From an uncultured Christensenella sp. (lineage in GTDB: Bacteria > Bacillota > Clostridia > Christensenellales > Borkfalkiaceae), in the NCBI GenBank assembly GCA_949878495.1, contig CATLAR010000003.1:1-48710 (forward strand): a DNA stretch of 48,710 nucleotides, read 5' to 3'. The position numbers were made by a program, and so were the translations under genes. Under the pieces are notes generated by a model. That model was not told the origin of the DNA and searched no databases. It saw only the letters and a list, made by a program, of their open reading frames with translations. Of this stretch, positions 23,108 to 26,817 are shown one piece after another (within the stretch, counting starts at the first letter, position 1; the number at the start of each line of letters is the position of its first letter).

Positions 23108-23546
23108 TTTTTAGCATAAAATAATTTTTTAACTTAACGCCATAACGCTCCGCCTCCTGCTCCCTTACAACGCAATAACCGCGTTTTTCAAAGAACGATT
23201 TTGCGGTAACCGACGCATACGTAGTTATCTTTGAAAAAGGTTTCTCAAGCTCGTCGCATAACGCCGTGGCAACGCCTTGGTTCTGATAATCTTTATGCAC
23301 GTAAAGAAAATCCAGATAACCGCAGTTATCCATACTTGCAAAACCGACGGTAACGCCGCCTATTTCGGCAATTAAAGTATTTTGTCTGAGTAAATCGGCG
23401 CGGCGCGGACTCAGTACGTCCGCGCTCTTTGCCCAGGCGTTAAGCTGCTCCAAGTTGTAGTCTTTTGCGTTGACGGCGTGAACCGTTTCATATAATAATT
23501 TTGCCGCCGCACCGAAATCGCAGTCATTATATCGCCGTAAAATCAT
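23091..23546 (-). CDS. GNAT family N-acetyltransferase
   Basis: 151 residues, single GNAT domain. The acetyl-CoA pyrophosphate loop is LYVHKDYQNQGVATAL (motif A, Q/R-x-x-G-x-A), preceded by the beta strand GYLDFLYV and followed by the late FFEKRGYCVV motif. Transfers an acetyl group to an amine; acceptor unknown. Its start overlaps the stop of the P-loop kinase gene by 4 bases, so it is translated in a coupled unit with that gene and the upstream transporter. Confidence 0.87.
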   Translation of the reverse strand: MILRRYNDCDFGAAAKLLYETVHAVNAKDYNLEQLNAWAKSADVLSPRRADLLRQNTLIAEIGGVTVGFASMDNCGYLDFLYVHKDYQNQGVATALCDELEKPFSKITTYASVTAKSFFEKRGYCVVREQEAERYGVKLKNYFMLKIKKAE

Positions 23547-24052
23547 AATTCAATATCCACGCGGTAGTTTTTGTCGATAAGCACGTAATTAAGGTTGTAT
23601 TTTTTGCATTGCGATAAGTTGTAAAGATTATCTTTTATCAGCTCGGTCTTATCCGCGCCGCCCTCGATACGCTTTTCAATAACGCTTTCAAACTTTATTA
23701 TTTCGTCGAAATTATCGTTAATATATCCGGCGGTCATAATAAGACAGTAAAATTTAATTTCGGGCAAATACTTTTCGTCGAAATCTTTTTGCCAATCAAA
23801 GGGAATATAGCACCCCTCCACGATAAGATGCTGACCGTTTTCCACCGCCGTTTTTATCATTTCCCTTACTATCGCCCAAAGATAGGGCGTGAGCTTTTCG
23901 TCGTCGTTTACGGTAAGCGAGGTCTGCCCGCTTCTTATCAGTCCCATCTTTAAATGGTCGATAGAAAAATACGGCAATGAATACTTTTCCGTTAACCGTT
24001 GCGCCAACGCGGTTTTGCCCGTATGCGACGCGCCCGAAATCAAAACTATCAT
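23543..24052 (-). CDS. P-loop NTPase, small-molecule kinase-like (AAA/adenylate-kinase type)
   Basis: 169 residues. Walker A GASHTGKT (7-14) follows the first strand MIVLIS; HLIVEGCYIPFDW in the middle is the Walker B-like strand with acidic Glu, and helical lid residues follow (IEKRIEGGADKTELIKDN). This is the pattern of small P-loop kinases annotated as adenylate kinase-like or 2-phosphoglycerate-kinase-like. No specific substrate is recognised. GGAGGG is in front of the ATG, 12 bases after the transporter gene. Confidence 0.7.
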   Translation of the reverse strand: MIVLISGASHTGKTALAQRLTEKYSLPYFSIDHLKMGLIRSGQTSLTVNDDEKLTPYLWAIVREMIKTAVENGQHLIVEGCYIPFDWQKDFDEKYLPEIKFYCLIMTAGYINDNFDEIIKFESVIEKRIEGGADKTELIKDNLYNLSQCKKYNLNYVLIDKNYRVDIEL

Positions 24053-24064
24053 TTATCCCTCCAC

Positions 24065-25051
24065 TCAGAAATCGTATTTATCGTCTATTTCGCCGACCAA
24101 TTCTTCCAAAATATCTTCCATAGAAATAAGCCCGGTGATAACGCCGTTATCCTTTACTATCGCTTGCGGAACCTGCTGTTCCTGCAAAAGTTCAAACGTA
24201 TCCGATATTACGGCGTCGGATGTTATGTACAGCACGGGTTTTAAAATTTTGGTTAAGTCCGATTTATTGCCGAGCAACATTTCGTAAAAGTCGGCGCGGT
24301 ATAAAATGCCTATGATATCCCGCTTGTTTTCGTCGTAAACGGGAACCCTTGAAAAATTGCTCTCGACGAAAACTTTTTTGATTGATTTAAAACCGTCGGT
24401 TATACAAACCGCAGTTATGTCTTCGGCTTTCGTCATTACCTTTTCTACTTTGGTTTCGTCAAACTTTATCGTGTTTTGTATTATTTCCGCTTCCGAATCG
24501 GCAAGCACGCCTTCGGCGGCTATGTTGTCAACCATTAACGCAAATTCTTCTTCCGTCATCGTCGGTCTTTTCTTATCAAGACGAAAAACCTTGTTGACGA
24601 GTTTTTTCCAGCCTTCGAAAATCAAAGTAAGCGGCGTGAAAATAATTTCAAAGAAATAAAGTATTCTCACCGAAAACATTGCAAATTCTTCGGGGCGTTC
24701 TTTCGCAATACTTTTAGGCGTAATTTCCCCGAAAGTCAGTACCAGCACCGTCATTACAACGGTTGACAAGGTTACGCCCAAATCTCCGAACCAAAACGTA
24801 AATACTATGGTTGCTATAGAAGCCGAAGCAATGTTTACGATATTGTTGCCTATAAGCAAAGTGGATAAAAGTTTATTATAATTTTCGCTCATTTTCAAAA
24901 CGAGCTTCGCCGATTTTTTCGTGCGCGACAGACTTTTGACTCTGACTTGCGATATACTCGTAAACGCCGTTTCCGAAGCCGAGAAGAACGCCGAAAATAC
25001 GAGCAGAATACATAAAACTATAATAAGCGCTATTGCGGTGCCTAAGTTCAT
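24065..25051 (-). CDS. CNNM/CorC-type (DUF21-CBS) transporter, lacking the CorC C-terminal domain
   Basis: 328 residues. DUF21 membrane domain (about 1-145) with FFSASETAFTSIS and GNNIVNIASASIAT, three to four helices, and FGEITPKSIAK, all typical of the family. Two CBS domains follow (about 195-315; FSRVPVYDENKRDIIGILYRAD and PQAIVKDNGVITGLISMEDILEELVGEI). It ends right after the second CBS pair and lacks the usual CorC_HlyC cytoplasmic domain. Relatives such as MpfA mediate Mg2+ export and resistance. GGAGG at 25059-25063 is the ribosome site. The gene is preceded by a roughly 200-base leader with its own terminator and short ORF. Confidence 0.88.
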   Translation of the reverse strand: MNLGTAIALIIVLCILLVFSAFFSASETAFTSISQVRVKSLSRTKKSAKLVLKMSENYNKLLSTLLIGNNIVNIASASIATIVFTFWFGDLGVTLSTVVMTVLVLTFGEITPKSIAKERPEEFAMFSVRILYFFEIIFTPLTLIFEGWKKLVNKVFRLDKKRPTMTEEEFALMVDNIAAEGVLADSEAEIIQNTIKFDETKVEKVMTKAEDITAVCITDGFKSIKKVFVESNFSRVPVYDENKRDIIGILYRADFYEMLLGNKSDLTKILKPVLYITSDAVISDTFELLQEQQVPQAIVKDNGVITGLISMEDILEELVGEIDDKYDF

Positions 25052-25098
25052 AAATAAACCTCCGAATTTAAAATTTTATTTTTAAATAAAGATGAGTA

Positions 25099-25227
25099 TT
25101 ACACGCCCGTAAACCTCCGCAAAAAAGCAAAAAAACACAGTCCGCATTTTCCGTGCAGACTATGTTTAATCGGTTTATAGTGAAATAACGTTTTATCAGT
25201 GGCGACGCAACTTGGGTCGTCAACCAT
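25099..25227 (-). CDS. Candidate 42-residue leader ORF overlapping a terminator
   Basis: ATG at 25227 with AAGGAG 10 bases upstream; stop at 25099. The peptide begins MVDDPSCVATDKTLFHYKP and later has three Cys and a Phe-rich, basic end. The reading frame passes straight through the terminator hairpin (25133-25167) and ends 48 bases before the transporter start. A real gene product would not carry an intrinsic terminator in its middle, so a regulatory leader peptide is the simplest reading. The acidic/proline N-terminus resembles that of MgtL leaders. No homologue is known to me; chance ORF remains possible. Confidence 0.5.
   Translation of the reverse strand: MVDDPSCVATDKTLFHYKPIKHSLHGKCGLCFFAFLRRFTGV
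25121..25167 (-). terminator. Attenuator-type intrinsic terminator in the CNNM-like leader
   Basis: On the minus strand AAACATAGTCTGCA (25167-25154) pairs along all 14 positions (two G-U) with TGCGGACTGTGTTT (25146-25133), then a T-rich run interrupted by GC (25132-25121). It sits between the promoter and the transporter gene. Confidence 0.8.
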
Positions 25228-25257
25228 ATTTAAGTAACTCCTTAAAAAGATAAATCT

Positions 25258-25286
25258 ATATTATCATATTCTATGCTTATCGTCAA
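25258..25286 (-). promoter_or_regulatory. Promoter of the CNNM-like transporter leader
   Basis: Minus strand TTGACG (25281-25286), 17 bp, TAATAT (25258-25263). Predicted start near 25251, about 24 bases before the leader ORF. Confidence 0.65.
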
Positions 25287-25352: not shown

Positions 25353-25565
25353 TCAATAAATATCTTTTAAGCCAAGCAGATAATCAGCGCTAACATTAAA
25401 ATATTCGGCAATTAAATATACGTTCTCAGCCGTTGGAAGAATTTTTCCCGTCGACCAATCCGAAATACTCGTTGCAGATACTCCTATTTTCTTTGCAAGC
25501 TCTCTTTTTGAAATTTCATTTTCAATAAGCAATTCATTTAATCTTAATGCAAATTTATTCTTCAC
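25353..25565 (-). CDS. XRE-family helix-turn-helix regulator (single domain)
   Basis: 70 residues from a GTG. The whole chain is one Cro/C1 domain: RLNELLIENEISKRELAKKIGVSATSISDWSTGKILPTAENVYLIAEYFNVSADYLLG. The ending EYFNVSADYLLGL matches both halves of the tandem regulator at 25891, so they are paralogues. Two 16-bp boxes just upstream are candidate operators for autoregulation. No partner toxin gene is seen. Confidence 0.85.
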   Translation of the reverse strand: MKNKFALRLNELLIENEISKRELAKKIGVSATSISDWSTGKILPTAENVYLIAEYFNVSADYLLGLKDIY

Positions 25566-25574
25566 AAAAATATT

Positions 25575-25620
25575 GTAAGATATATTTTACAAAAACCACT
25601 TGACGTAAGATATGTCTTAC
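25575..25620. promoter_or_regulatory. Two operator-like boxes GTAAGATAT..TTAC
   Basis: GTAAGATATATTTTAC (25575-25590) and GTAAGATATGTCTTAC (25605-25620) agree at 14 of 16 bases, are near-palindromic and have centres 30 bp apart. The right box lies inside the spacer of a plus-strand promoter (TTGACG 25600-25605, 18 bp, TATAAT 25624-25629) directed into the next XRE gene in antisense. Confidence 0.65.
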
Positions 25621-25630
25621 ACTTATAATA

Positions 25631-25870
25631 TTAATCAGTTAATTCGTTCATATCAAAATACGGAGAATTAAAAAACTCGCTTAAAGATATATTCAAACCA
25701 GCACAAATTCCGTAAATGAATTTAATTTGTATAGATGTGTTATTAGCTTTTACTATATCGCAGAGTGTTGAATTTGCAACGCCCGTTTTAAGGCTCAATC
25801 CGTGAACGGTTAAATTATTTTCATCACACAATTCCTGCACACGTTTTGCAATACTATCTTTTAATTTCAT
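25631..25870 (-). CDS. XRE-family helix-turn-helix regulator
   Basis: 79 residues. One HTH_3 domain: KRVQELCDENNLTVHGLSLKTGVANSTLCDIVKANNTSIQIKFIYGICAGLNISLSEFFNSPYFD. The ending SLSEFFNxPxFD and overall length match the regulator at 39224, making the two paralogues of one subfamily. GGAG lies 5-8 bases before the ATG. It is 20 bases downstream of the tandem regulator and so is probably in its transcript. Confidence 0.87.
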   Translation of the reverse strand: MKLKDSIAKRVQELCDENNLTVHGLSLKTGVANSTLCDIVKANNTSIQIKFIYGICAGLNISLSEFFNSPYFDMNELTD

Positions 25871-25890
25871 TTTAACACTCCATTACCTGT

Positions 25891-26349
25891 TTAATTGTAA
25901 GGCGTTTTATCGTCAGTTCTGCCAAGTAAATAATCTATTGATACTTTGAAATAGTCGCTTAGCGATTCCAGAAATTCCAATGACGGTAAATAGTTTTTGT
26001 TTAGCCAACGCGTAACGTAACTTTGGTCAAAATGTAAATCTTTACATACCTTGTATTGAGTAACATTCTTTTCTTTACACAAAAGAATAAAACGAGTTTT
26101 GAAATCGCTTTTTATTTTTGCTTGATTAAAATATTCGTCGTCGGAAGTTCCGAGTAAATATTTTATAGATACGTTAAAATAATCCGCAATGCGAATTAAA
26201 ATTCTCGGCGTTGGAACGATACCGTACTTTAAAGCGTTGGATAAAGAACGATAATCTATGCCGATTATATTCGGTAAATCAGATTTATTAACTCCGCATT
26301 CCTCTACTAATTCGGTTATGCTGTTCTGAAAAGCGTTTGAAATAGCCAT
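25891..26349 (-). CDS. Regulator with two tandem XRE helix-turn-helix domains
   Basis: 152 residues holding two Cro/C1 domains, about 8-68 (ITELVEECGVNKSDLPNIIG...DYFNVSIKYLLG) and 80-148 (FILLCKEKNVTQYKVCKDLH...DYFKVSIDYLLGR). Two DNA-binding domains in one chain could let a monomer recognise two half-sites. No sensor or protease domain follows. The upstream region shared with the 51-residue gene contains repeated AAACTACAA and a 20-bp palindrome. First gene of a two-gene unit. Confidence 0.87.
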   Translation of the reverse strand: MAISNAFQNSITELVEECGVNKSDLPNIIGIDYRSLSNALKYGIVPTPRILIRIADYFNVSIKYLLGTSDDEYFNQAKIKSDFKTRFILLCKEKNVTQYKVCKDLHFDQSYVTRWLNKNYLPSLEFLESLSDYFKVSIDYLLGRTDDKTPYN

Positions 26350-26701: not shown

Positions 26702-26742
26702 CAGCAAAAAGAGAGGTGAAAAATTCACCTCTCTTTTTGCTG
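26702..26742 (-). terminator. Terminator of the tRNA-Arg transcript
   Basis: CAGCAAAAAGAGAGGTGAA (26702-26720) pairs perfectly with the 19 bases at 26724-26742. On the minus strand the T-run is CTCTCTTTTTGCTG. It overlaps the last two bases of the encoded CCA. Confidence 0.85.
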
Positions 26743-26817
26743 GTGCACCGTAAGGAATTCGAATCCCTAGCCTTTGGTTCCGTAGACCAACGCTCTATCC
26801 AGTTGAGCTAACGGTGC
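26741..26817 (-). tRNA. tRNA-Arg (anticodon ACG)
   Basis: 77 bases including encoded CCA. Acceptor stem GCACCGT/ACGGTGC, D-arm GCTCAACTGGATAGAGC, anticodon stem TTGGT/ACCAA with loop CTACGGA, variable AGGCT, T-arm AGGGATTCGAATTCCTT. ACG is the wobble-inosine arginine tRNA reading CGN. Confidence 0.95.

Follow-up and report, generated by a model that had tools for sequence, protein, structure and literature searches.

CNNM/CorC proteins occur from bacteria to man, and to our knowledge little is known of how the export of Mg2+ is switched on in bacteria. The locus described here, in a stretch of 48,710 nucleotides from an uncultured Christensenella sp. (the window), raises the question of whether the ribosome might act as that switch: a short upstream open reading frame (uORF), with a terminator inside it, precedes a gene for a transporter of this kind. 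The original prediction for the locus was an mgtL-like leader peptide with inverted output, placed on an exporter.

The original paper on intrinsic ribosome destabilisation (IRD) is said to be that of Chadani, from 2017. As described in the cited sections of two papers, early acidic and proline residues of MgtL impede or abort translation of the uORF and the Mg2+ importer is thereby turned on (PMC11282234, PMC11552253), and the cited section on MgtQ likewise has acidic residues that impede or abort translation, controlling a Mg2+ importer (PMC8092293). In Salmonella, high Mg2+ induces CorC and MgpA, and an IRD N-terminus is given as the likely reason for the induction of CorC (PMC12421838, in the part cited). 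IRD has been described in E. coli and Salmonella; we found no demonstration from Clostridia in the open-access literature. Among the matches listed from the open-access PMC literature (bioRxiv and most subscription journals lie outside it), no paper dealt with leader peptides of Clostridia CNNM genes.

The leader and its gene in the window

The following features make up the locus, in the order of transcription:

25258..25286, minus strand: promoter TTGACG-N17-TAATAT (TTGACG at 25286-25281, TAATAT at 25263-25258, 17-nt spacer), 9 of 12 consensus matches
25238..25243, minus strand: Shine-Dalgarno sequence (SD) AAGGAG of the uORF, read from the sequence
25099..25227, minus strand: uORF for a leader peptide, 42 codons, MVDDPSCVA... 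= MVDDPSCVATDKTLFHYKPIKHSLHGKCGLCFFAFLRRFTGV, ATG at 25227, with counterparts in relatives
25210..25224, minus strand: acidic/proline motif, codons 2-6 (V-D-D-P-S), with the codons CCA AGT
25133..25167, minus strand: intrinsic terminator hairpin, 14 pairs and a loop of 7, inside the uORF from codon 21
25123..25132, minus strand: U-rich terminator tail TTTTGCTTTT, still within the uORF (consensus scan)
25059..25064, minus strand: SD CGGAGG of the CNNM gene, read from the sequence
24065..25051, minus strand: CNNM (DUF21) and CBS-pair transporter, 328 aa, probable Mg2+ exporter, ATG at 25051

As originally predicted, a promoter, an SD, a 42-codon uORF, a 14-bp terminator inside it and then the transporter gene succeed one another on the minus strand, and the AAGGAG of the uORF can further be placed 10 nt from the ATG. 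The promoter is one of five 9-of-12 matches between 25000 and 25400, where shuffles average 1.3 (consensus scan). A scan of the same interval for terminators returned exactly one, at 25167-25133 (0.3 in shuffles); it lies wholly within the uORF, whose frame has no stop before the end of the U-rich tail. The peptide does begin with Met-Val-Asp-Asp-Pro, of which Val2 is particular to the window copy; its relatives of class A (see below) read MDDDPSC, MDDDPSS and MDDGPSS. The transporter had been called CNNM/CorC-like. Its Pfam matches are to the CNNM transmembrane domain (PF01595, 174.6 bits) and a CBS pair (52.8 bits); the CorC_HlyC C-terminal domain is absent from the matches of the 328-aa protein at E<=0.001.

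As to the surroundings, three small ORFs (window 25353-26349, minus strand) lie between a tRNA-Arg gene (26741-26817, minus strand) and the leader. Two of them carry a Cro/C1-type HTH and the third, 25631-25870, has no Pfam match; with the tRNA-Arg region they are perhaps the remnant of a mobile element. At L010, a close orthologue, the 500 bases upstream look different from those of the window. The interval 23543-24052 (minus strand), directly 3' of the CNNM gene, encodes a small protein that lacks a Pfam match and opens with the P-loop-like GASHTGKT; since an apparent homologue at L010 starts divergently upstream of the CNNM gene (judged by eye), this protein and CNNM may be functionally linked.

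A family of leaders in the genus

A PF01595 search of 93 genomes of the genus gave 53 matches over the cut-off, of which 51 were examined, and a related uORF precedes the CNNM gene at 41 of these 51 loci, in three main paralogue classes and four variants. By rule, an SD is present in 40 of the 41 uORFs, L055 being without one. Class A, to which the window belongs, has four loci with CNNM proteins of about 335 aa and the leaders MVDDPSCVA, MDDDPSCVA, MDDDPSSVA and MDDGPSSVA. Class B has 23, with CNNM proteins mostly of about 430 aa; its leaders start MDDPSKPS or MDDPSKRR, with MDDPSRPS, MDDASGPS, MDSSSGPSS, MDSSAGPSN and MDGSAGPST as outliers. Class C (10 loci, about 490-535 aa, GTG start) shows MDDSPSSVP and close variants, and class D (four loci) MDPSNPRNK twice, MSDPSQPS and MSDSSQPS. 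The ten loci without a leader are eight paralogues of 320-390 aa (L012-L014, L082-L086) and two of about 440 aa (L080, L081). Acidic and proline residues thus stand at the N-terminus of the uORF as they do in MgtL-type leaders, with weak acidity in the last three class B outliers, which have mostly lost their acidic residues and retain P-S together with the SD hairpin described next.

The 3' part of the uORF meets an element that would turn the exporter off (an OFF element) in all 41 genus leaders, and these elements are of three kinds: a terminator inside the ORF or reached by it (14 leaders, the window's included), a hairpin that takes up the exporter's SD (23) and stop-start coupling (4). 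The terminator hairpin starts at codon 19-21 in classes A (4/4) and C (10/10), and the terminators of the two classes are homologous (AACATA...TGTGTT); the uORF stop falls within the hairpin in L070 and beyond it in the other class A and C loci. In the alignment of the 14 terminator loci the paired fraction of cells is 93.2%, where slid versions reach 46-64%, with a covariation score of 0.241 against 0.173 in shuffles, and two of five covariation measures are unremarkable (5 double-sided changed pairs, a number reached by 31 of 500 shuffles, and 15 pair types, reached by 254 of 500). In this alignment MAFFT misplaces the inner arm in four class A rows, which is a bias against the structure. 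In class B, at least four of the five SD bases GGAGG pair with the last 36 nt of the uORF in 23 of 23 leaders (local minimum-energy fold), and the duplex averages -14.6 for cognate against -11.0 for non-cognate partners, a value as low being reached by none of 10000 re-pairings. In class D the stop of the uORF and the ATG of the exporter overlap at two loci and are at most 3 nt apart at the other two, and the exporter's SD is located within the uORF.

The three kinds of OFF element imply, as far as the sequences can be read, one common sign: with the uORF finished the exporter would be on, and with the ribosome lost early it would be off. That the sign is unchanged in paralogues whose OFF element is SD sequestration or stop-start coupling is what the idea of an inverted mgtL predicts. 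Start codon, acidic/proline N-terminus, open frame and OFF element co-occur at 41 of the 51 genus loci (three being weakly acidic) and recur in other families, and nowhere in the aligned leaders is the hairpin conserved without the ORF. This co-occurrence, with one sign across the kinds of OFF element, supports the original model, in which an exporter is controlled by an mgtL-like leader of inverted output.

Other structures were seen in two of the classes. All 23 class B uORFs have a second GC hairpin immediately before the CAYTTY of an RAHF-like motif, perhaps a pause site or a weak terminator. The class C exporters (L067, L070-L078) have no evident SD, and a GC-rich hairpin lies just before their start codon; RNAalifold draws in this class a stem between a U-rich stretch ending ACTTCCAC and the final codons of the uORF.

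Reading frame, codons and RNA

The original prediction had found no antiterminator pairing for the hairpin arm, and for upstream segments this holds in the window, whose best pairing scores -4.7 (shuffles: -7.5), and across 27 terminator-type leaders (14 from the genus, 13 others), none of which has an upstream segment that pairs with the hairpin arm beyond 95% of shuffles. A switch between upstream RNA folds is therefore not supported. An Rfam/Infernal scan of the window leader returned no family at the gathering score and nothing plausible at E<=10, and a riboswitch was rejected on this result together with the lack of an upstream antiterminator in the 27 leaders. RNAalifold of the 23 class B leaders gave only a 4-bp stem at the start; as it missed the SD hairpin as well, it says little and was not used as evidence.

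The leader could also be an RNA element of a new sort, either a novel riboswitch or a protein-binding leader, with GACGACCCATCTAAG or CCAAGT as part of its conserved sequence and the ORF incidental to it. The motif is conserved at the nucleotide level across paralogues, with CCA retained, and the substitutions of the genus show no clear third-position excess: within codons 2-9, differences at positions 1/2/3 number 4/6/6 in class A, 515/426/544 in class B (where 89 codon differences are synonymous and 758 are not), 9/34/34 in class C and 18/27/17 in class D, and such counts alone do not prove coding there. The frame itself tells against an incidental ORF, for it stays open in 41 of 41 genus leaders despite lengths of 25 to 53 codons, the +1 frame being closed in 38 of them and the +2 frame in 40. 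Moreover, seven leaders from families f59 and f102 do have a third-position excess (34/58/121 differences at positions 1/2/3; 41 codon differences are synonymous and 115 are not, with Asp/Glu swaps among the latter), and the absence of an Rfam match in the window leader and of an upstream antiterminator in 27 leaders points the same way. We regard an RNA element with an incidental ORF as very unlikely. A functional small protein was judged unlikely too, since the middle of the uORF varies in length and sequence and its conserved 3' ends also serve as OFF elements.

A leader peptide read by the ribosome is thus the reading that we follow, and one of its features had not been foreseen, namely a constraint on the proline codon. 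Within the motif (codons 2-9), 50 of 60 prolines are CCA, against 53 of 1102 in 116 genes of the genus, the sequences being related; later uORF prolines are CCA in only 8 of 55 cases. Serine is AGT or TCT at 58 of 86 positions in the motif and 330 of 2025 in genes, again in related sequences; with 26 of 61 in the remainder of the uORFs, this bias extends beyond the motif. CCA AGT is kept where acidic residues have been lost (L043, L063, L066), and the same letters are found at the start of some distant CNNM genes (L177 GACGACCCATCT, L128 CCAAGTAGC). A purely peptide sensor leaves the CCA constraint unexplained, and codon or RNA sequence may matter as well.

The residues that would destabilise a ribosome might instead hold it: in an arrest peptide, the ribosome would stall at the first uORF codons (e.g. 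at Asp-Pro) and leave the distal part bare. Acidic runs and Asp-Pro can pause ribosomes, as the cited sections of PMC11282234 and PMC11381351 describe, but the hairpin, which starts at codon 19-21 in classes A and C, lies some 13-19 codons beyond a stall at codons 2-6. With the ribosome stalled there the hairpin would be free, so that the output would be the same as for drop-off, and sequence cannot separate the two; we consider arrest highly improbable.

Leaders in other families and their specificity

Outside the genus we sampled relatives (11 loci) and 299 genomes of the phylum (90 loci), and 100 of the 101 CNNM upstream regions could be parsed. Acidic uORFs were recognised by eye at ten of the 100 (L022, L132, L150, L155, L160, L164, L166, L168, L170, L174), in eight families (f3, f39, f59, f62, f87, f102, f122, f126); all but L132 and L164 have an SD by rule, and about 90 of the 100 genes have no such leader. 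Targeted searches found a leader at 7 of 9 parsed loci in f59 (M-D-D-[DN]-[IL]-G-[DE]... and others) and at 7 of 13 in f62 (MEDADPSG, MDEADPDH, MEDADCSA and others, with only MELVPLPK at L232 and L234); the rule finds an SD in 8 of the 14, and three of the 14 are loci already present in the first sample. In 13 of the 21 distinct outside leaders the uORF ends within a terminator-like hairpin; those of L205 and L232 extend beyond such a hairpin, and that of L229 stops 4 nt short of one; L022, L166, L170, L199 and L202 have no convincing terminator. At L166 and L170 the uORF's TTTATTATCCTC could pair with GAGGATAATAAA at the exporter's SD. One candidate, L020, read by eye as MDQPPSPRR, is doubtful and was excluded from the counts, since its properly SD-led frame gives MSPWINLPHPDDAGPG. 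The 18-base motif of class B, searched in 396 genomes of the order, matched twice, both times in the genus and never outside it.

In some distant families it is the CNNM protein that begins with acidic and proline residues (L095, L128, L031, L037, L177; MDDPSS, MDASDGGPSS, MDADPDPD), as if the sensor were built in. Acidic exporter N-termini number 11 of 100 outside (p 0.02) and 0 of 51 in the genus, against 16 of 343 in the background, a weak result in which the choice of start codon is uncertain.

How specific such leaders are to CNNM genes was judged by a fixed rule: an SD, an in-frame stop at most 90 nt upstream, and codons 2-9 with at least two Asp/Glu and at least three Asp/Glu/Pro. The rule, set after the genus leaders had been seen and applied to related sequences, is met by 28 of 51 genus CNNM genes, 13 of 115 other CNNM genes and 3 of 342 background genes, and together with a terminator-like hairpin reached by the uORF by 18, 11 and 1. 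Among outside CNNM genes not chosen on purpose it is met by 7 of 99, against 3 of 342 in the background (p 0.0016); for the version with a hairpin reached, leaving aside L022, L166 and L170 with their unconvincing terminators, the figures are 3 of 99 against 1 of 342 (p 0.04). Two loci that pass, L121 and L227, look like chance, and the rule misses L132, L164, L168 and L174. An earlier background test (genus 33/51, others 21/115, background 15/343; reverse complements 1/51 and 3/115) was replaced because its background included starts internal to ORFs as well as the leader of the window itself.

Motif searches point in the same direction. An SD followed by MDDPSK occurs 19 times in 84,980 species genomes, 17 times just upstream of a CNNM gene; the two exceptions are L182, at a contig edge, and L181 (Verrucomicrobiae), with no CNNM gene in its 8-kb locus, and the records other than the Verrucomicrobiae one are Clostridia or Clostridiales MAGs. 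Of two patterns made from the genus leaders, one gave 16 matches (14 CNNM leaders and two within long ORFs) and the other 12, all CNNM leaders, which makes 26 of 28 together; in the order of f59 (17 genomes) six matches comprised five leaders and one within a long ORF. Over all motif searches, which overlap, 48 of 53 matches are CNNM leaders. L295, L262 and L276 match the patterns inside long ORFs and were rejected as leaders.

This distribution bears on a reading that shares the architecture and the sign but has a signal other than Mg2+ itself, in which the N-terminus would report general elongation capacity (EF-P or ABC-F action at Asp-Pro, prolyl-tRNA, decoding of rare codons) and the exporter would be tied to translational activity. 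The prolines of the motif use the rare codon CCA, YfmR and EF-P resolve Asp-Pro stalls in B. subtilis (PMC11381351, in the section cited), and EttA acts on MgtL (PMC11282234, likewise). A general capacity sensor does not, however, predict leader matches concentrated at CNNM genes, and every pattern match that could be placed lies at a CNNM gene or inside a long ORF, apart from the one without CNNM, a further match being unplaced; several outside leaders, moreover, are rich in Asp/Glu with no early proline (MDDDIGDEGSS, MEDSFGEEGSR). We think a report of elongation capacity unlikely.

A model for the switch

Taken together, we think it rather probable that the locus attenuates a CNNM-type transporter, probably an exporter of Mg2+, through a leader peptide whose sign is opposite to that of mgtL. 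A conserved uORF in frame, conserved OFF elements at its 3' end and their one common sign are supported by the sequences compared. Mg2+ as the signal, and ribosome drop-off as the way in which it is read, we infer by analogy with IRD in E. coli and Salmonella; Mg2+ as the cargo of the exporter is suggested by membership of the family.

The transcript would begin just upstream of an SD-led uORF that encodes an acidic/proline N-terminus. At low cellular Mg2+, ribosomes would be destabilised on this N-terminus and drop off, as IRD in E. coli and Salmonella suggests; with no ribosome on the distal uORF the OFF element would form, and in the window the terminator at 25167-25133 would stop transcription before the exporter gene. 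With ample Mg2+, ribosomes would reach the end of the uORF and cover the hairpin arm, and the exporter would be made. Paralogues would join the same N-terminal module to an SD hairpin formed from the last codons of the uORF, or to a uORF stop coupled with the start of the exporter. Ribosomes in Bacillus are believed to trail behind RNA polymerase; such a lag would count against the model where the switch is a terminator, but not where it is an SD hairpin.

More tentatively, these leaders could be a widespread and so far undescribed class of Mg2+-sensing leaders in Clostridia and their relatives, in which one acidic module is combined with three interchangeable OFF elements on CNNM exporters, always such that a completed uORF turns the exporter on; sensing would also go through the rare codon CCA (then AGT or TCT), with codon-tRNA or the mRNA in the ribosome as part of the sensor. 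If this is true, bacteria use the ribosome to gauge Mg2+ for export and not for import alone, the two differing by a simple reversal of polarity, and they do so outside the enterobacteria, where such gauging was found. The leaders offer directly testable sequences, a natural family of variants and a codon-level puzzle about ribosome destabilisation.

Relation to known systems

The following comparisons draw on the cited sections of each source. With MgtL of mgtA (E. coli, Salmonella; PMC11282234), the leaders share an acidic/proline N-terminus after the start, a short uORF before a Mg2+ transporter gene and premature end of translation as the switch. There the importer is made when the uORF is left unfinished, by way of Rho-dependent termination and alternative RNA conformations; the window and genus leaders precede an exporter-type gene that would be off in that state, to judge by the anatomy of the OFF elements, and they would act through an intrinsic terminator with no upstream alternative pairing, an SD hairpin or coupling. 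MgtQ of mgtB (Salmonella, PMC8092293) resembles them in its acidic codons 2 and 5 and in a translational output via the SD, but there drop-off frees the SD of an importer, whereas in the CNNM leaders completion would free that of an exporter. CorL of corA (PMC11552253) is likewise a uORF before a Mg2+ transporter gene, with expression dependent on Mg2+; it differs in controlling an importer, in the inverse relation, in the use of Rho and in fewer acidic and proline residues. The leaders share with the IRD of CorC (YbeX) and with YoaL-MgpA (PMC12421838) the proposed idea of a Mg2+ efflux protein that rises with Mg2+ by passage of an IRD sequence. These are enterobacterial, with the IRD sequence inside the protein itself or with YoaL overlapping the upstream region of mgpA, whereas the Clostridia CNNM genes have separate leaders with terminators or SD hairpins. 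By this analogy, the CNNM leaders would be the leader-peptide form of the CorC/MgpA logic on exporters.
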